64,000 nt of DNA from Nannochloris sp. 'desiccata' (lineage: Eukaryota > Chlorophyta > Trebouxiophyceae > Chlorellales > Chlorellaceae): NCBI GenBank assembly GCA_019044685.2, contig JAGTXX020000014.1, positions 744,001 through 808,000 on the forward strand, in the 5' to 3' direction. The notes below the pieces were generated by a model, which worked only from the letters and a program-made list of their open reading frames with translations, was not told the origin of the DNA and searched no databases. Below are positions 2,214-58,509 of this stretch, one piece after another. The first letter of the stretch is position 1, and the number at the start of each line of letters is the position of its first letter. A program made the position numbers and the translations under genes.

Positions 2214-5200
2214 TTAATTCACTGATTCTATTCCCCAGGGTTCTAACGCCCTTTGCATAGCACTTGGCGAGTGTGCATACGCTAGCAGCAACCCATAATT
2301 AGTTACCGGTACCCCAGCCTCGGTTAAATCTGAAACTCTGGCCTTTATTTTTTGAGAATCAACCATACAGCCACCACAATGGATAGCTAAAGCAAATTTA
2401 TCCAAATTTTCTATTTCAGGAAATTCTCTTCCAAAGGCATGCTCTACAATCACCGGTTTAGTAGTATCACCAGTACAACCATCCCCGTCGCCTCCGCCTC
2501 TGCAACCAGCAACAGCTGCTTGTAGTTTTTGAGGAATCTGAACCGTACCTATATCATTGCACAGCTCAGTAATTCTATTATGGTTGCACGCTTCAGCTAC
2601 AAGCACACGGTCTCCAGGTTTCAGATTTTTATACGCTTCGATGCCTGCTGCAAAAACTGGCAAGGCGCCTCTACTTTGCCGCTGCACCATCGCTATTGAA
2701 AAAGTCGTAAAGGGCACCAACTGCTCTCCAGAAGCACAGTCCATAGTCCACGGGTGTATAATATCCACAGCTTAACTATCTGTAATGATAATAATTGCAG
2801 GTCCTTGGTGCTCTAGCACAGGTTTTAATGCTTTCAAGAATCTCTGCCGTTCTTTCTCGGCTACTGTTGGATCTGCACTGCGTGCTGCGTTCAGATTCAT
2901 CCTGTACGCAATCGTAGTAGCATAATTACGGATGGCTTCTTCCTGCACTAGAGCTTGGGGACGTAGCAATCGCATTGAAGGGGTTTCAGCGTCCATAGGG
3001 ATATTTAAAAACACAACAGCGTCTTCATTTAAATAGTCAGCAGGCAAGCAAGGGACTGTGTGCAGAGCTCCAACCTTTTGCGTTTCCTGCTCTAAAAACT
3101 CGGCTAATGGCAAAGTCGCAGCAGGATCAGCCAAGGTGGTTGTATGGGTCGCTAGAGCGCCTGCAGGGTCTAAAAAGTGCCGGACTTGTTGTTCTAGATG
3201 TGATGTAAACCTTAATCCAGAAGGAAACTTTTCTTCTTTTATTTCATTTTTAGTATTGAAAAGTAGGATTAGTTCAGCTCCACTTGCAGTAGCCTTCTCT
3301 ACCAACAACTTTTCCCACCGCAAAGCTTCAGCTAACAAAGAAGAAGAAAGAGGAAGAGGAGAAATTCCGTTGCCATCGCCTCCAGCAGTCTTTTTTCCTT
3401 GCCTCTGCTGCTGCAAAGAGCCTACAGCTTGCTCTACCTGGTTTAAATTCACTACCACAAGAGCTACATCACATTCTTTCAAAGTAGACAACACCTTCTT
3501 TCTCTTTTTATCTCCTAAAACCCCTTCTTCATCGATTCCTGCAGTATCAAACAGCTTCACCGGCCCTGCAGCGTGTAGCTCCATCAAGGCTACTTTAGTA
3601 TCTGCAGTCGTTCCTGGGGTCGAGTCCACAATGGAGATCTCACTGCGAGTTATTCTATTCATTAATGAAGATTTACCAGCATTCATACGGCCGAAAATAC
3701 CCAGATTAGTACGAGGAACATCAGAGCCAAATGCTGCTGCTGGGGAGGCAGGAGAGGCTGCAGCGCCTTTAGCTCCACAATTTCCAGCATCACCACTACC
3801 AGAAGCAAAGATAGCAGCTCCGTTTGTCTTTGCAGCAGATTTAAATGCATATTTAGTAGGTACAGGGCATGAGATCTCTTCAGGAGCAACCACACCACAA
3901 GGTGATAACACAGCTGGGTTCAACAACGCCACACTACTATGTACCCCTCTTCTACTTCTATCACTAGTAAACCCTCTATTACCACCACCACCACCACCAC
4001 CACCACCACCACCACCACCACCACCACCACCACCACCACCACCACCACCACCACCACCACCACCACCACCACCACCACCACCACCACCACCACCACCACC
4101 ACCACCACCACCACCACCACCACCACCACCACCAGAACTGCTTCCTGTCACTTGAGGGTTTAAGCTCACAGGGTGTAATCGTTTTCGAAAACTCGGTGGA
4201 TCACCCCAAATCCCACTTTTCAATTTCTTACCGACCATCGACAACCTTGCATTTAAACATTTCTGACACTCTTCCGCAGTATCATTAATGCAAGGTTTCC
4301 CTTCATACAGCGTATAATGCTGTCTATACTTGGTAGGGGTCAATATAGGCATCAGAACGTTTGCCCCACGACGTAATGCAATCTCTCTGCCTACCGGATC
4401 GATGGCTTGGAGGGCGGTTGTGGCAGCAATATTAACATTACCGAGCGTTATTCTCGCTAACGCGTTCATTCTGGTAGTTAAACTCACCATTGATTTCATG
4501 TGTTCAGTTTTATCGAGATGGCCGTACTGTTGCGACCACATATCAGCTGCAGGGGTGCCAGGTTCAGTGATGTACGGGCCCATACCAATCATATCGGCCT
4601 GAAGATCTCTAAAGAAGGCGATATCTCCAGCTAAATCTCGTAGCGTTTGACCCGGGAGACCCACCATTACACCCGTACCTATCATAAAACCTGCTTTTTT
4701 AGCGTCTTGGAGGGCTTTTACGCGAGCCTCCCAGTGTTGATGTGCTGGGTGGAGGCTGGAATAAAGATCGGGGTTTGAGGTTTCTATTCTCAAGAGGTAG
4801 CGATCTGCCCCTGCTTCTCTAAATGCTTGGTATTGCTCCAAAGAGAGCTCACCAGAGGATAGGGCCACGCAGAGACCAAGATCAGATTGCGTCACATCAA
4901 TAGGAGCTGTAGAGTCTGTGGTGGTGCTGGGGGCAAGAAGAGGAGATGCAGTGCTGCCGGCGCCAGCGCCGGTGCCGTCTGGTAGAGAGGAGAAAGAACT
5001 ACTAAGATGCCTTTGAGCTAGATCCATTTCAATAGTCCGTTCTCTCACTTTTCTTACCATATCCATGATATATGTATTCCTCTCTGGTGTTGTTAATTGG
5101 CCACTTTGAAGCATCAAGGTGCCCATCTTGTGATTAAACGCCCATTCGGCTACTTCAACTACTTCGTTAATAGGCACTGTATAGCGCCACGTTCTCGGTT

Positions 5201-5808
5201 GATGTTTGCGTACTCCACAATAGTAGCAATCAAACTCACAAACGTTTGAAAACTCGACTATTCCACGGAAATAAACATCCTTTCCAAAAAATCTACGAGT
5301 AACCGACTCTGCGTGGGTAAACAGAGCCTCATCTAGAGCTTTATCTCCTTGATTTAAGGTTGTAGCTTTCAGGAGAGCTTCAATTTGGTTAATGTCAAGC
5401 TCAAGGACGTCTTCAGGGCGGATTCCTGAAGGGTTTGTGCCGAAAAATGAGGCGAGAGAGGTAGCGGCTTCCTCTTCGGTGAGCGAAGTTTCCCAGGGCA
5501 TGGTGCGTTTTCCTTTCATTTCAGCTACAAGCTTCTCTACTGCTGCCAGACTGCATAATCAAATTGAATTTTATTATGAAAAAATAGAAACATTATTTTA
5601 AAATGGAAAAACAGGGTGAATGAAGTAATCAGCGTTCTAAAACTGGATGTTGCAAGAGGACGGCCCAGGAGCGGGGGTGACGGTCCTGGGCCTGTTTTTA
5701 TATTTATATAAGCTTCTCTTACCTAGCAGCAGCGTGTGAGCTAGAGATGCATCTCATGAACCCTAAGGCAACTTGTTTTCCAGTTAGTTTTGAGATTGTT
5801 GCCAGCAT
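2214..5808 (-). CDS. HYDEF: HydEF, fused [FeFe]-hydrogenase maturase, with one in-frame TAA
   Basis: Fused HydE (radical SAM enzyme) and HydF (GTPase scaffold), which build the 2Fe subcluster of [FeFe]-hydrogenase. Two exons on the minus strand: 5808-5723 and 5550-2214, with a 172-nt intron. Exon 1 encodes a basic, hydroxylated organelle-targeting presequence starting MLATISKLTGKQ. The HydE radical-SAM motif CEFDCYYC has Cys near residues 133, 137 and 140. The HydF part has a P-loop GRMNAGKS near 649, a DTAG switch, and C-terminal cluster ligands C-N-H near 1017-1019 and HCGGC near 1087-1090. A tract of about 51 Gly links the two halves. The frame is interrupted once, by TAA at 2772-2774 between ITDS and AVDIIHP. 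The conserved HydF sequence there is ITDSQ, so the TAA stands at a Gln codon. Without it the product would be about 1,140 residues. It may be a recent pseudogene, a read-through case or a sequence error. Confidence 0.93.
3981..4134 (+). repeat. (ACC)n trinucleotide tract of about 51 units inside HydEF
   Basis: About 154 nt of uninterrupted ACC/CCA repeat, read on the minus strand as GGT codons giving about 51 consecutive Gly. It lies exactly in the linker between the HydE and HydF parts. The antisense poly-Pro and poly-Thr open frames here are artefacts of the repeat. Confidence 0.97.
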
Positions 5809-6187
5809 CTTAAATAGCTGCAAGTTATTATTTAACGGTATCTTTATCAATTCAATGGTTGGCTTGAAATTCAATGAAAAAGATGTCAATGTGTTTAGCG
5901 ACCGATGCCGCGATGCTGGGTCTATAGCATGCGATGGTATTTTTGACAATGTAGGTTTGGTAGGAAATAATCTGATTATATAAAGGAGGTGACTTGAACC
6001 CTGAATTAAGGGGTGACGTGTACCTTTCAAACTGCAATGCAATGCAACGTGAACAAACCCATCATGATCTCTCTTTTCCTTGCTTTATACCTCAAATTAA
6101 AAGCATATATATTACTATTGCACCTAAATAATTGTGTAATTAGACCGAGAGAGGCTTGATCTCTTCAGCCTTTTTTTAATAAACACA
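5809..6187. promoter_or_regulatory. Bidirectional promoter region HydEF/HydG
   Basis: 379 bp between the HydEF presequence ATG (minus, 5808) and the HydG ATG (plus, 6188). It contains TAATTAGACC at 6137-6146, a 10-mer that also occurs upstream of other genes in this window (48776 and 62888). In this region the HydEF open frame runs upstream of its chosen start, but I see no presequence-like content there. Confidence 0.5.
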
Positions 6188-7810
6188 ATGCTAAGATTAC
6201 TAGGCAAGACAGCTCTTCAAGCTGCGGCCGTTTCAGGGCTCTCCTCGTATCAAGGCTTGAAAGCTCTAGCTGCATGTGCTACACATATGCAGATCCGCAC
6301 TGCCATGTGGAGCGTGGAAAGAGAACCCCAAGAATATAAAGATGTGAACGACATCATCAACGACTCGCTCATTGTCAAAACTTTGGAAGGGAGTAAAGAA
6401 GCAGCCAACGATCTCGGCAAGATCAGAGCTATCTTAGAGGCAGCAAAAGAACGCTGCTTTCTTAAAGATAGAGAACCAGGCCCTTCTGAATTCGTTCAAG
6501 GCTTGACCTATGAGGAAGCAGCTACCTTGATTAACGTGGACTCGAGCAACGAAACAATCATGCAAGAAATCTTCGACACAGCCTACGACATCAAACAGAA
6601 AATCTACGGCAACCGCATTGTCTTATTTTCTTCCTTATATCTGGCCAACCACTGCGTGAATAACTGCAGATACTGTGCTTTCCGTGCTCCCAACAAACAC
6701 ATTCAGCGGAGTGACCTTACCACCGAAGCTCTAAAAGAAGAAGTAGCTGCTCTGCAGAAACAAGGGCACCGCCGATTACTAGTACTTACAGGAGAACACC
6801 CTCGCTACAGTTTCGATAAGTTTCTGGAGGCAATAGACACCATTGCGTCTGTTAAATCTGACCCTTGTGGTAATATTCGAAGGATGAATGTTGAAATACC
6901 AGCCTTGAGTCTCTCAGATATGCGAAGACTCAAAGCAACCGACAAAATTGGAACATACACTCTCTTCCAGGAAACGTATCACCGCCCTACTTTTAAATAT
7001 ATGCATATTGCGGGTCCTAAAAGTGATTATGACAATCGTGTGTTGGTTATGGACAGAGCCATGAGGGCTGGACTTGATGATGTGGGGCTTGGGGTGTTGT
7101 ACGGTTTATATGACTACAAATACGAAGTCATGGCATGATTAATGCACGCAAATCATCTTGAAAAAGAATATAAAGCAGGTCCACATACCATTTCTGTCCC
7201 TCGTATGCGCCCAGCTGACGGATCTGATGTCTCTCTTGCCCCACCGTATCCTGTCGACGATGCCGATTTTAAAAAAATTGTCGCTGTTTTGAGGATTGCT
7301 GTACCCTATACTGGAATGATCCTGTCTACTAGAGAGTCTCCGGAAATGAGAAAAGAGCTATTAAAAACAGGGATGAGTCAAGTAAGCGCTGGCTCTAAAA
7401 CTGACGTCGGCTCTTATCATCGAGACACTTCAAAAACGACGGAAGAGGAACTAGGCGATGTAAATGGTCAATTTTCATTAGCAGACCACCGCACTGTAAA
7501 TGAAATTGTAATTGATTTAATGAAGGAAGGCTATGTTCCTTCCTGGTGCACTGCGTGTTACAGGAAGGGAAGGACTGGTGAGCACTTTATGAAAATTGCC
7601 AAGGCTGGGAACATTCACAATTTTTGCCATCCTAATTCTTTGTTGACTTTACAAGAGTATTTGAATGATTATGGAACTGAAGAGGAGAAGAAAGTGGGTC
7701 AAGAAGTGATTGAAAGAGAGTTAGGGACTGGGTTGAGTGAAGGGGCACAGAGGGTGACAAAGAAAAAGTTGGCAAAGGTGAATGCGGGTGAGCACGATCA
7801 ATTTATTTAG
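6188..7810 (+). CDS. HYDG: HydG, [FeFe]-hydrogenase maturase, with one in-frame TGA
   Basis: Radical-SAM tyrosine lyase that makes CO and cyanide ligands for the hydrogenase H-cluster. Single exon. The N-terminal 35-45 residues (MLRLLGKTALQAAA...) look like an organelle presequence. The SAM-cluster motif CVNNCRYC has Cys at 156, 160 and 163. The C-terminal cluster motif C-x2-C-x22-C (CTAC...C) falls at about 454, 457 and 480, and the frame ends in EHDQFI. One TGA at 7136-7138 interrupts the frame after YEVMA, and LMHANHLE continues in the same frame. No other lesion is visible. With the stop bridged the product would be 540 residues, normal for algal HydG. The stop removes the auxiliary-cluster domain needed for CO/CN production, so without read-through or correction the enzyme would be inactive. 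It is divergent from HydEF. Confidence 0.93.
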
Positions 7811-24703: not shown

Positions 24704-25917
24704 AATATTTCAATTCAGTTTAACGGCGCCGAAAGTAAAGGTGCTCCAATGCAATTTAAATTATGCGAGTTATTTTTGGCTAACTTGGTGCTTTATGGGC
24801 TCCTTGTTCGTGGTAGTAGCAACAAACGAAAATGGAGCTGCAAAGGTGCGCAAGAAGGACATGATATTACTTCTTTTGTGGGAAGTAAAAAAGTCGAGCT
24901 GAAATTTGAACTTCGTATGCTGAGCAAAAGATTCGTCACAGCGACTTCGCACCCCATCTCTGTTGGTACTACTGTTGCTGCCCAATCGTGCTTAATTTCA
25001 GTGATCAGACGGGAACTGATGTATTCACGATGGTATGAACGAATCATAGACGGTAATAGTTGACGTTAAACAGTTTCGTAAAACACGTTTTTCACGCTAC
25101 TTCCAAAAAGTGAGGTATAGAGCGTTTTCTTACACGTTTTGGCATTATATATCAAGATTATTGTGTTTCTTACGTGTTCTGAAAGCGGGGAAACCTGTGA
25201 GAGTGTTAATATTTCGATCCAAGACCAAGTCTTGGTCGAAGGCAGGGCTTCGATTAAGGTCCTTTTTTCCTAATTTCCGTTTCTAAAAAGGAATTTAAGT
25301 TCACGAGAGCCAAAAAAAGGACGAGATAAAAAGGGAGAGGCTAAAAATCAGCTAAAAATTGGGAGGAAAAAAGGGTGCTTTGGGGCCAAACTGCCGCCGT
25401 CACTAAAAACACAGTTTGTATGACCAAATTCGGCCAGATTCTCTTGAAATTTGCGGTAAACACAGACATGAGCAAAAACAAAAAAAATCACGGCGTGTGA
25501 GGCCAAATAAGCAACAAAATCAGCAAAAATGTTGTAAAAAAGATGGACAAAGCTGTCCAGGGGCCATTTTTCTTTGAAAGGTGTAGTCTCAAAAGGCTCA
25601 AACATCAGATCTTTAAAGCATTACATAAATTTAAACCTAGCGACTAATGAAATATAAGTATATACAGGTACTCCTGTCCTCTCTAAAGGAAGTTTTGCAT
25701 ACCGATTTTAGAAATTTTTAAAATTAAGGCTTTGCTTTTTAGGCTCATTAACGAAAAGAAAACCCTTGGACCGTCTGAGTAAAAGTATGCTTAGCTAGAC
25801 AACCCGAGCTAAAGCTTCATGGCAACGGCTGGTGTGATGCATGCTTTGATTATCTTCTCAACATCTCAACATGAATTAAATTTAGCTTTGGGTTAAAAAT
25901 TGCTTTTCACAACGACG
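24704..25917. other. Gene-free 1.2 kb upstream of the B3 gene
   Basis: A perfect 7-bp hairpin GACCAAG-T-CTTGGTC lies at 25223-25237, nested in a looser palindrome. A-rich sequence runs from 25300 to 25600. Small open frames here look random. Probably the long upstream region of the gene at 25918. Confidence 0.45.
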
Positions 25918-52975: not shown

Positions 52976-53499
52976 TTGGTTATTCTTTTTTTTACATCGC
53001 TTGCTTTATTTCTGGTTTCCCCTCTTTGGTTAGAATAGTCTATTATGGTATTTTGACATGTAGTAGTAGTTTGTAAAAACAGTATCTAAAACTATGAGAA
53101 GAAGAAGAAGGAAAACATCAAATAAAGTCCGGTGTCGGGAAAAAAGCTATTACATTGAAAGTTTTTATTTTCTTTGTTAGTCTTGTTATCGCTCTTTATT
53201 CAATTAGATTTTGATAATAATAACGTAAACTCACCTTGTTTCTAACTCGTGGGTGCTCAACGGCCGCGCTTTTCCTGCGACACCATCATCGTGGCAGCAT
53301 TGTCATGCAATGCCAGCATGCACTGAATTTTGGCCCGCCCTTCCTAATTAGGCATCATCTAGATTATGTAACGACTGTAGTATGATCAAATAGCGGAAAT
53401 AAGGCCTCAAACTTTTTTGCCGGGAACTGAATGAAAAACTAGTTAATAGTGGATTAAAGTTTGGAGGAATCCTCCGATTGGCCAAAAAAAATTTGAACA
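52976..53499. other. Intergenic, NDUFS1 3' flank to tRNA
   Basis: No gene recognised. The end of this segment (53483-53499, A-rich then ATTTGAACA) precedes the tRNA 3' half and can pair with sequence after the 5' half. Confidence 0.5.
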
Positions 53500-53584
53500 T
53501 GGGAAAGGTCGTGGGTTCGACTCCTGCCTGCTCCAAAGGTATCTTTCGGGGTAGTGGCACAGATGGTAGCGCGTTCCCTTCGCA
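53500..53584 (+). tRNA. Circularly permuted tRNA-Ala(CGC)
   Basis: The 3' half precedes the 5' half. 3' half 53500-53535: T38, anticodon-stem GGGAA, variable AGGTC, T-arm GTGGG-TTCGACT-CCTGC, acceptor CTGCTCC, discriminator A; CCA is not encoded. Intervening 12 nt at 53536-53547. 5' half 53548-53584: acceptor GGGGTAG, TG, D-arm GCAC-AGATGGTA-GCGC (one A-C mismatch), G26, anticodon-stem TTCCC, loop TTCGCA with anticodon CGC. Joined, the 73-nt tRNA has a fully paired acceptor stem with the alanine identity pair G3:U70, a complete anticodon stem (TTCCC/GGGAA) and loop TTCGCAT, as expected for tRNA-Ala. The break falls between positions 37 and 38, the usual tRNA intron site. CAAAT after the 5' half can pair with ATTTG before the 3' half, as needed for splicing-endonuclease processing. 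A TTTT follows at 53589-53592. Confidence 0.9.
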
Positions 53585-54587
53585 AATGTTTTGCTGATTT
53601 TGGCAACAGGCACATCACTTGCCTTCCAGAAAGTCTATCTCCAGGTCAATATGACACTATCTGAAAAAGTTACAGCCACTTTCTGTCATTGCTGCCTTCC
53701 CACTTAAGAAGAAACAAAGAATGGATCAATCTACCCGCCTTAGGATTGTTTGCTTTCGTGGGTACATATGACATCATAGACAAAGGAACAAAAACATTTA
53801 AAGATCAATCCGACACGTCTACCCCACATTTTGCTTTAACGCCGTGCACAACGGTGTTTGCCGCCGCTAGCGTGGGGGTAAACGTACTCTTTTCGCTTCA
53901 TTTATTCATTTTTGCACTTTTTGATATATGGAAAGATGACAAGACAGATGGAAAGGTAAAATATAGTAGCCAACAAGGAAATAGAAAGAATCCAGGGTCA
54001 AGATAATAATATTGTTGCATAGCATAGCATGCATTTCGCCAACTTCTGGACAAATTGCCCTACTATTTCAGCAAAGGTCAGCAACGTCTCTCAAAAAAAA
54101 ATCCGACAAACTAGATTTATAGAAGTCCAGCAGTGTCTAAGGAGAACTATCTTACCATTTGACCTCAACAGCTCTTAAAAGTCACCACTGGTCAACGTCT
54201 CTTTGCTCTCAAGCTCAAGGTTGCATTGTTGCCATCGAAAGTGCGGAGCTAACCTCAAGAGGAGCTGCCAGGTGTTGTAGCTTCTTATGTTGCTCGTGCA
54301 CGGCAAGGAATGGACCCAAGATTGAAGCTTTTGGTTGAAGATATTCAGAAGAAGGGGTCTCTATACGGCCAGGGCCATAATAAAATAAAATAAAATAAAA
54401 GAACCCCAAGGGGGTGACTTAAGGGATCGTGAGAAGCACCAAGCTTCAGGCCACCCCTATATAGATGTAACCATGTAATTAACCTACACCAGTAGGCGAA
54501 AGGAGGTGAGTGCGGAGTTGAGTTAGGAGTTTATACCTTGTAAGAAGGATACTTGAGTTGTAATTAAGAATTTGGAGTTGAATTGAC
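53585..54587. other. Gene-poor region with one weak open frame and TAAAA repeat
   Basis: An open frame at 53689-54006 encodes two hydrophobic stretches (LPALGLFAFVGTYDI and VFAAASVGVNVLFSLHLFIFALF) but has no ATG, so it would need an upstream exon I cannot place. A (TAAAA)4 microsatellite lies at 54381-54400. Nothing else recognised. Confidence 0.4.
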
Positions 54588-56242: not shown

Positions 56243-58509
56243 TTATTTCAAATGCAAGACACTCAAAACACCTTGGCTATTCGCAGCCAAGCAATGTCTA
56301 CCACCGCGTGCCCAGCACACAGAACTCACAAACGTACGATGAGAAGAACCGCTCGAACCACCCTTTTTCGTTTCAGAGGTTCCCATCGATGAAGACGGTT
56401 GCTGGCTGCCACTATTGCTCCTCTCGTTCGTGTTCTTCCTTGACTGGGTCACACCATCCCCAAGACGGTGAGAAGCGACAGAGAATGGTAATGTCTTATA
56501 ATATGTATGAATGCTATTATCTTCAGAGCCCGTTGCTATGTATCCATCGTCAGTAGCACTCAACCCAACAAAATTCCGCTCATTCCTGTGACCGGTGAAC
56601 ACACACCGCGGTGGCAATGCCACTCCAGCAGCACTGGGGCCACCAGAACCAGCTGTTAGAGCTTCTTCTACATCCCATACACGGATTGTGTTATCTGTCG
56701 AGGCAGCTACCAAGGAATGAGGACCCATAAACCGAACATAAGACACTGCTCGGTTAGGTCCGGATATGATTGCAGCTGGAGTATTTGCTTTCCTCAAGTC
56801 GTACATATACACTCTGTGGTTTGCACAGCCTGCTGCGACTAAATTGCCATTTGTAGGGGAGAATTGAACAGAGCATACGTTTGCAGGGGCGCGCATAACA
56901 GTCGCTGAAGAATCTTGATTGACGCTCCAAAGCCGCACCGTGGCGTCGTCAGAGCCAGACACGAAGCGCATAGGATCTGCACGACTGAAATCAACAGACC
57001 AGACACGACGAGAATGCTCCTCGAATTGTGCAGTTTCTGTAGAAGAAGGGCCAGCGGAAGCATCCCAAAGTTGGATAAGGCCGTCATAGTCAGAAGTCAA
57101 TAAATGGGGGCGTACATAGGCGTTCCAGGAGACGGAAGAAAGCTTTGACCGTGTGGCCGCTTGCCATACTGGTACATGTAAAGAACTAGGAGACGACAGC
57201 ACAGCTTCAAAATCAAATACTTTCACTGAGCGTGACACGCTGACGGTAGCAAAATGTCTATCGTCAGCAGCAAAGTCAGCACAGCACACCATTTCTTGAG
57301 GACTCGCGATATCTCCAGCACGGAGAGAGGCACACACTTCTAAGGAATTGCTTTGGGAGAGGACGTTGAGGTCCCGTGCTAAGCTATCCAGAGCAGACAC
57401 GGAGTTGCCACCGGTGCCATTGCGACGGCGATCGAAGTAAAGAGGTTCTAAAGAATCCAAACGAGAGCTAATAGCTGTCCAATTGGTGATAGTAGAATTG
57501 GTAGTCGCGTTGCTAATACTGCTGGTAGAAGTACGCTGGCGTTTTACAGAGGGAGGAGCATCTTCTACTGCACGTTTACCTCCAACAACTGATATATCTA
57601 GTTCAATTTCAGCGAGCTGCCTTTGAATTTTAGCTGCTTCTGCTTGACGAGCTTGGCGCATAAGTAACAAAAACTGCTTGGCGCCTTCTAAATCTGCTGC
57701 TGGTACTAATGGAGCTGCAACTGGAACAGGTGCTGCTGCTGCTGCTGCTGCTGCTGCTGCGGGTTTCTTCTGTAAATTTCTCAAAGGCGCTGTCACTGGT
57801 CGGTGTGATGCTCTGCTAATATCGTGCAAATCCGCAGAAGTATTATTATTTTCTGCAGAAGTACTAGGACCATCAGTCGTAATCACTTTTGCATCACCAG
57901 AAATAGCTTGAGGAACTGTAGCTAAAGCACTGCGTTTTCTCAAAACATGCTGCCACATATGCTGCACCTCTTTTCTAGTGACGGGCTTCACTAAATACTC
58001 TTCTGCGCCGCTAGAAACGCATTCAAAGACGGTATCACCTTTATCAATGGAAGACATCATGATGACAGGGACCGAGCGGAGGTTTTCTTCTTGTTTTACG
58101 TATTGTAAGAGCTGGATACCATCAACTTCAGGCATGCACACGTCGGTGAGAACGAGATGAAAGGTGCCTGGCTCGTTAGAGCGCAGGAGATCCATGGCTT
58201 CGGCGCCATTCTCAGCTGTTGTGACTGAAAGGAATGAAAAACGAGGAAAAAATAGTGAGTAAATAATTGAAAAAACAAGATTGAAAAGCTCTTTTCGGGA
58301 TGATTTTACGTTGGAGGGTTAAAATCCACCGTACCTGTGTAATTACATCGGCGCAGCAAACTAGAGACTACTGTTCTGCTCAGACGCTCGTCGTCTACGA
58401 GGAGAACGTGGACGTCTGAAGGCGACAGGGAAGATTTTTGTGGTTTTGGAGTCGTGGCATCGGAGACAGGCCCAGAGCCGAGTCCTACCAGAGGAATGGC
58501 ACTGGCCAT
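56243..58509 (-). CDS. Receiver domain fused to COP1/SPA-type WD40 propeller
   Basis: Exons 58509-58335 and 58224-56243; 718 residues. Residues 33-150 form a response-regulator receiver: VHVLLVDDERLSR with the acidic pair, phospho-acceptor Asp in LVLTDVCMPEVDG, then PVIMMSS and LVKP lysine, so all key residues are kept. WQHVLRKR follows, as in plant pseudo-response regulators. Then poly-Ala, a short helical Ala/Glu/Arg stretch (ARQAEAAKIQRQLAEIELDI) and a basic PSVKRQR. From about 370 lies a seven-blade propeller of COP1/SPA type: FATVSVSRSVKVFDFE, TRSKLSSVSWN, HSRRVWSVDFS, SGSDDATVRLW, ASTDNTIRVWDVEEAL, ERNFVGLS, and the hallmark end FVSSVCWARGG...LAANSQGVLSVL. No RING or kinase domain is visible. 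The frame is open upstream to 58788, so a longer N-terminus is possible. Confidence 0.88.

Follow-up and report, generated by a model that had tools for sequence, protein, structure and literature searches.

The analysed window is a 64-kb stretch of DNA (G000:C14:744001-808000) from a genome of 21.55 Mb in 18 contigs. It contains a gene for tRNA-Ala(CGC) that is circularly permuted at position 37/38, with the 3′ half placed first and both halves on the plus strand. The following elements were assigned to the locus.

53413..53418, plus strand: T run upstream of the gene, tentatively belonging to an upstream promoter for Pol III (T-run enrichment)
53494..53497, plus strand: leader arm of the putative bulge-helix-bulge (BHB) helix, partner 53579-53582 (4/4 pairs here; register backed by 27 genes)
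53500..53535, plus strand: 3′ half of tRNA-Ala(CGC), positions 38-73, CCA not encoded (anatomy, ARAGORN on the join, stems, model R2)
53536..53547, plus strand: intervening sequence of 12 nt, leading from position 73 to position 1 (sequence)
53548..53584, plus strand: 5′ half of tRNA-Ala(CGC), positions 1-37 (anatomy, ARAGORN on the join, model R2)
53589..53592, plus strand: TTTT, likely Pol III terminator (such a run lies no more than 24 nt beyond the 5′ half in 26/27 permuted genes)

Re-reading of the sequence confirmed, exactly to the base, the coordinates of the gene, its halves and its spacer given in the preliminary description. The claim that the halves form a complete tRNA when read 5′ then 3′ was borne out by ARAGORN, which calls tRNA-Ala(cgc) on the join. 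All of the stems and loops previously named are present, namely an acceptor stem GGGGTAG/CTGCTCC with G3:U70, an anticodon stem TTCCC/GGGAA, an anticodon loop TTCGCAT and a T-loop TTCGACT. All acceptor and anticodon stem pairs are retained, and one non-standard pair is found in the D-stem. G3:U70 is the alanine identity pair; it also occurs in both other Ala genes found (AGC and TGC). The minus-strand open reading frame described over the locus does exist (53348-53560), and its interpretation as a mere shadow of the tRNA is plausible.

Several other genes were recorded in the window. A single 5S rRNA gene lies at 24928-25046 on the minus strand (77.4 bits). Hydrogenase maturation genes adjoin each other: an ORF at 2772-7138 encodes a HydE-HydF fusion (HydE at 272.9 bits, above the cut-off; HydF at 118.4 bits, below it), and a HydG-like ORF (248.9 bits, under the cut-off) is located 669 nt away on the opposite strand. 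The protein encoded by the ORF at 56243-58195 has WD40 repeats in addition to a response-regulator receiver domain at its N terminus.

As had been predicted of an ordinary tRNA scan, ARAGORN misses the permuted gene: even with its intron option it reported no tRNA in the 64-kb window; the Rfam tRNA model stayed below its gathering score at the locus, and the 5S rRNA was the only match in the window at gathering score. A covariance model (R2) was built from 11 permuted tRNAs of this genome, none of them for alanine. Its sole match in the window at E ≤ 10 was 53492-53592 (52.1 bits, E = 3.4e-15). Among 46 further loci, R2 recovered 14 intact permuted genes outside its training set with 34.1-75.6 bits; the Val CAC gene, a training member, scored 72.3 bits and a decayed copy (L131) 26.8 bits. 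The 22 control loci gave no match at E ≤ 1, and the maximum at nine loci with ordinary tRNAs was 14.4 bits. Based on the R2 score and these controls, a chance origin of the match is excluded. The larger model R1 gives 72.7 bits at the locus, a score that is not independent because this locus is part of R1. The 111-base locus occurs at a single place in the 21.55-Mb genome in a search scoring the best candidates.

For a 37/38 junction, the helix recognized by the splicing endonuclease is expected to form between positions 32-35 and positions -3 to -6 of the leader. At this locus T53579, T53580, C53581 and G53582 (positions 32-35) can pair with A53497, A53496, G53495 and T53494, which gives 4/4 pairs. 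Over 27 permuted genes the same register contains 74/108 pairs, compared with 26-48 for ten other offsets; shuffling the leaders among the genes gave 53.5 ± 3.7 pairs and reached 74 in 0/20,000 trials. The signal is concentrated in 32:-3 (20/27) and 34:-5 (22/27), while 33:-4 (18/27) does not exceed the shuffled level and 35:-6 (14/27) is borderline (p = 0.07). Six ordinary introns of the same genome have 16/24 pairs in this register. The flank pairing of CAAAT with ATTTG suggested earlier is possible on paper; it was nevertheless dropped and replaced by the BHB register, which is the one backed across permuted genes, because both need G53495 and thus contradict each other at one base. Folding lent no support: the minimum free energy structure of the precursor is not the tRNA fold and is not unusually stable (z = -0.79; 45 of 200 shuffles were equally good).

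In 26 of the 27 permuted genes a TTTT stands no more than 24 nt beyond the 5′ half; among stretches of 24 nt in the window, 13-14% contain one. In every permuted gene the B-box precedes the A-box; consequently, their transcription may depend on elements further upstream. T runs of at least five residues at -120 to -40 were found for 17/24 permuted and 6/9 ordinary genes, compared with 14% of 80-nt stretches of the window, which fits transcription of tRNA genes from upstream elements. Gibbs sampling of the upstream regions returned a T-rich string with an information content of 9.0 (60 restarts) and no sharp motif; four random sets gave 8.1-8.2 with 20 restarts each. Loss of TFIIIC as a cause of the inverted promoters was rejected, since TFIIIC B-block domain matches were detected on contigs C1 and C4 and a Tau95 match on C12. 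The B-block model is not specific, because 4/14 control prokaryotes also scored above its cut-off; Tau95 matched in none of the controls.

As read from the sequence, tRNA-Ala(CGC) does not stand alone: across the genome, the majority of the tRNA species detected are encoded in a form permuted at 37/38. In a census that is incomplete, 27 permuted species stand against 10 in ordinary order. The permuted species are Ala AGC, CGC and TGC; Arg ACG, TCG, CCG, TCT and CCT; Asn GTT; Cys GCA; Gly GCC and TCC; Ile AAT and TAT; Leu AAG, CAA and TAA; Lys CTT; an elongator-type Met CAT; Phe GAA; Ser AGA; Thr CGT and TGT; Trp CCA; Tyr GTA; and Val AAC and CAC. All species found for Ala, Arg, Asn, Cys, Gly, Ile, Leu, Lys, Phe, Thr, Trp, Tyr and elongator-type Met are permuted. 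The junction is 37/38 in 27/27, and ARAGORN assigns each join the amino acid that matches its anticodon. Second permuted copies of Trp (L124, L125) and Gly GCC (L148, L151) bring the total to 29 genes, in addition to the decayed L131. The latter (G000:C11:1726820-1727120) is a Leu-like copy that has kept its acceptor stem and T-arm and, as judged by eye, has a disrupted D-arm and anticodon region.

Common features of the 27 genes include spacers of 5-73 nt, U8 in 26 (absent from Leu TAA), U33 in 26 (absent from Val CAC), the D-loop GG and TTCRA in all and an encoded CCA in none. The Val CAC gene (L090:504-622) has the anticodon loop CCCACAC, where C33 replaces the usual U33. Across the permutation, acceptor stem pairs are formed in 187/189 cells, compared with at most 124 in 5000 shuffles; for the 13 genes outside R1 the corresponding values are 89/91 and at most 68 in 5000 shuffles. 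In the first 14 genes the permuted cloverleaf is paired in 98.3% of cells and the acceptor stem in 100%, and both-sided changes occur in 19 of 21 pairs.

These genes were collected in several ways. After a weak match in the window, the Rfam YrlA model was used as a hook for the genome; among the best 46 of 427 candidates scored, it gave 12 matches, all of them permuted tRNAs on inspection. Lys and Tyr were added from a genome search with RF00005, and 13 further species came from R1 together with T-loop and D-arm patterns. The RF00005 search, in which the best 63 of 825 candidates were scored, yielded 16 matches: six below the cut-off, all on permuted genes (L012-L017), and ten above it, none of which is a conventional tRNA-Ala(CGC). 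The ordinary genes without intron are Val TAC, Gln CTG, Met CAT (which we read as initiator-like) and Ser GCT twice; those with an intron are His GTG, Pro TGG, Ser TGA, Asp GTC and Ser CGA. A further intron-bearing gene, Pro AGG, was included manually from L152 and L149, which makes 11 ordinary genes of 10 species. Ser GCT and Gly GCC are found once each on C6 (near 2472090 and 2549221) and on C13 (near 296464 and 218760), with similar spacing and in opposite order; this may reflect either a duplicated segment or an unmerged haplotype.

The T-loop pattern GGTTCGANNCC, which is blind to the order of the halves, occurs at 95 places, 15 of them in known genes (10 permuted, 5 ordinary). A further 42 places in 40 stretches revealed eight intact permuted genes and one decayed copy, Thr(TGT) adjoins one place, and five places in previously sampled DNA added no new gene. 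Thus, with 62 of the 95 places inspected (those with a pyrimidine at position 60 taken first and some repeat-like ones skipped), the tally at matched places is 18 intact permuted genes versus 5 ordinary ones. For AGTTCGANYCT (39 places, 5 known), 26 of the 34 others were read at least partly (7 + 19); for GGTTCAANYCC (75 places, 5 known), 20 of the 70 others were read partly. The D-arm pattern has 841 places, and few were inspected among the 100 matches listed. A Pro-like 3′ part on C5 (L192), with no 5′ half in roughly 100 nt upstream, was excluded from every count.

About nine anticodons were not seen in the sampled census: Gln TTG, Glu CTC and TTC, Gly CCC, Lys TTT, Leu CAG and TAG, Pro CGG and Thr AGT. 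Even if all nine were ordinary, the permuted share would still be 27/46. The preliminary description regarded permuted tRNA genes as known, which holds, and as rare, which does not hold for this genome, where they are the majority of the species found. With 27 of the 37 anticodon species found in this form, permutation is probably the normal way of encoding tRNAs in this chlorellalean alga.

We consider it very probable, judging from the gene itself and its relatives in the genome, that the locus is a functional nuclear gene for tRNA-Ala(CGC) with a circular permutation of type II (37/38). The best of the alternatives, and still a very improbable one, is that it represents a rearranged and silent relic of a tRNA gene. 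Permuted copies can indeed decay, as L131 demonstrates with its low R2 score. Against this, the Ala locus has kept every acceptor and anticodon pair and G3:U70, its BHB pairing and terminator are in place, and 26 other permuted species of the same genome carry the same signals. A normal tRNA-Ala(CGC) elsewhere had been named as the observation that would speak for a relic, and none was seen in genome searches of the best candidates.

It is most unlikely that the arrangement is an artefact in which halves of two neighbouring ordinary tRNA genes were brought together by misassembly or a chance join. The order, the junction and the flank pairing recur at 29 places on many contigs, each half matches its own partner and not the halves of other genes, and the flanks as a rule contain no remnants of tRNA halves. 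Equally little can be said for a split tRNA, with halves transcribed separately and spliced in trans. The same BHB motif would serve trans-splicing, but the halves are 12 nt apart on one strand, the spacers of the 27 genes measure 5-73 nt, and the spacer at 53536-53547 contains no TTTT. Finally, a Y RNA-like (YrlA) RNA carrying a tRNA-like module is hardly credible: the Rfam model (RF02553) does match the locus with 22.3 bits, but this is far under its gathering score of 69 bits, the anticodon arm is paired, and the loci found by the YrlA model each bear a different anticodon.

For the permuted tRNA-Ala(CGC) gene, we suggest the following pathway. RNA polymerase III would produce one linear precursor consisting of the leader, the 3′ half, the 12-nt spacer, the 5′ half and a short trailer ending in U. 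The leader and the anticodon loop, whose complementarity is observed, would then fold into a bulge-helix-bulge. By analogy with published algal cases, the tRNA splicing endonuclease would cleave at both sides of the junction, and position 37 would be joined to 38 by a ligase to give an RNA circle. RNase P and tRNase Z would subsequently excise the spacer, after which CCA would be added. The mechanism by which algal permuted tRNAs are processed is described in section 6 of PMC3978253. Candidate enzymes are encoded in the genome: two tRNA_int_endo matches were found (on C6 and C1), together with an unbroken RtcB match on C11 and a second one in two adjoining pieces on C14.

Two repeats lie upstream of tRNA genes, each always in one orientation relative to them. 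Repeat 1, of about 1.3 kb, has terminal direct repeats of 197 bp that are identical within the L012 copy; its copies are at L012:1754-3091, L020:20-1352, L010:240-1377 and L132:248-301. It ends approximately 80-140 nt upstream of permuted Lys CTT, Ile TAT and Arg CCT and of ordinary Asp GTC, in the same orientation, and had no match in 22 control loci. It may be a mobile element with Pol III genes as its targets, among them permuted ones. Repeat 2 (L022:987-1406, L023:1714-1796, L026:1666-1797, L007:320-739, and also L113, L127 and L141) carries the B-box-like GGTTCGAGTCC on its other strand. Its end is found about 90 nt upstream of three permuted genes (Cys GCA, Arg TCT and Phe GAA); for the ordinary His GTG gene the distance is about 760 nt. 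If both repeats target Pol III genes, the cell would see permuted genes as such.

Remnants of a tandem-duplicated tRNA, as one scenario for the origin of the permuted genes would leave them, were rejected as a general pattern in the flanks. The search covered the upstream side of 24 of the 27 genes and the downstream side of 23, and the mean z values ranged from -0.63 to 0.09. The exceptions, with p of 0.01 or less, were eMet, Thr(TGT) and Arg(TCG). Just upstream of permuted Thr TGT (L143 near 152; G000:C16 near 207081), a T-arm-like stretch resembles the 3′ half of that gene (flank match p below 0.005) and is a possible trace of duplication.

Permuted tRNA genes are a known kind of gene, and it is their genome-wide extent that looks new. 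If most species are permuted, most cytosolic tRNA species would pass through an RNA circle, Pol III would use genes with the B-box before the A-box despite the retained TFIIIC domains, and the splicing endonuclease and ligase would be essential for decoding most amino acids. The 27 species would provide natural substrates for studying how Pol III promoters, the endonuclease, the ligase and RNase P cope with the inverted order. Standard tRNA annotation of such genomes would also be badly incomplete, given that the whole-genome Rfam search returned ten genes above the cut-off from the best 63 of 825 candidates.

The host was placed with the NuoG protein of the window. In a tree of 26 rows, it groups in one clade (98/93) with sequences from Picochlorum and the environment, adjoining Auxenochlorella, Chlorella and Micractinium; therefore, on the basis of this one protein, the organism is a chlorellalean green alga near Picochlorum. 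IMG/VR contigs scanned for the neighbouring NuoG gene contained no relative.

According to PMC3978253 (Soma 2014), permuted genes have been recorded in a few algae and for two archaeal genes, and form a minority of the tRNA set; 34 genes were counted in seven organisms, with the highest number per genome in C. merolae (11/43) and 3-6 per genome in four prasinophytes. The nucleomorphs of Bigelowiella and Amorphochlora also contain permuted tRNA-Ser genes (PMC4494063). Titles and abstract openings on permuted tRNAs and algae contained no report of a majority-permuted genome; subscription journals and supplements were outside this scope.

According to PMC12636532, Auxenochlorella UTEX 250-A has permuted tRNA genes. 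It resembles the present host in being a trebouxiophyte, in its nearness in the NuoG tree and in the incompleteness of an ordinary tRNA scan; their number and kinds are given in a supplementary figure, so the extent is not comparable here. The type II genes reported for Ostreococcus and Micromonas (Maruyama 2010, tabulated in PMC3978253) share the nuclear location, the green algal host, the 37/38 junction with its hBH motif and the short spacer with the Ala gene. They differ in that 3-6 genes are present per genome, with no Ala listed in the part of that review consulted, as against 27 species and a chlorellalean host here. C. merolae, as presented in the same source, likewise has many permuted genes, TTTT downstream and no encoded CCA. 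A circular intermediate was demonstrated there. Section 5 of PMC3978253 states that TFC1 and TFC3 homologs were not identified in C. merolae, in contrast to the TFIIIC B-block and Tau95 domains present in our genome. Furthermore, the 11/43 permuted genes of C. merolae have four kinds of junction, whereas all 27 of the 27 permuted species found here are joined at 37/38.
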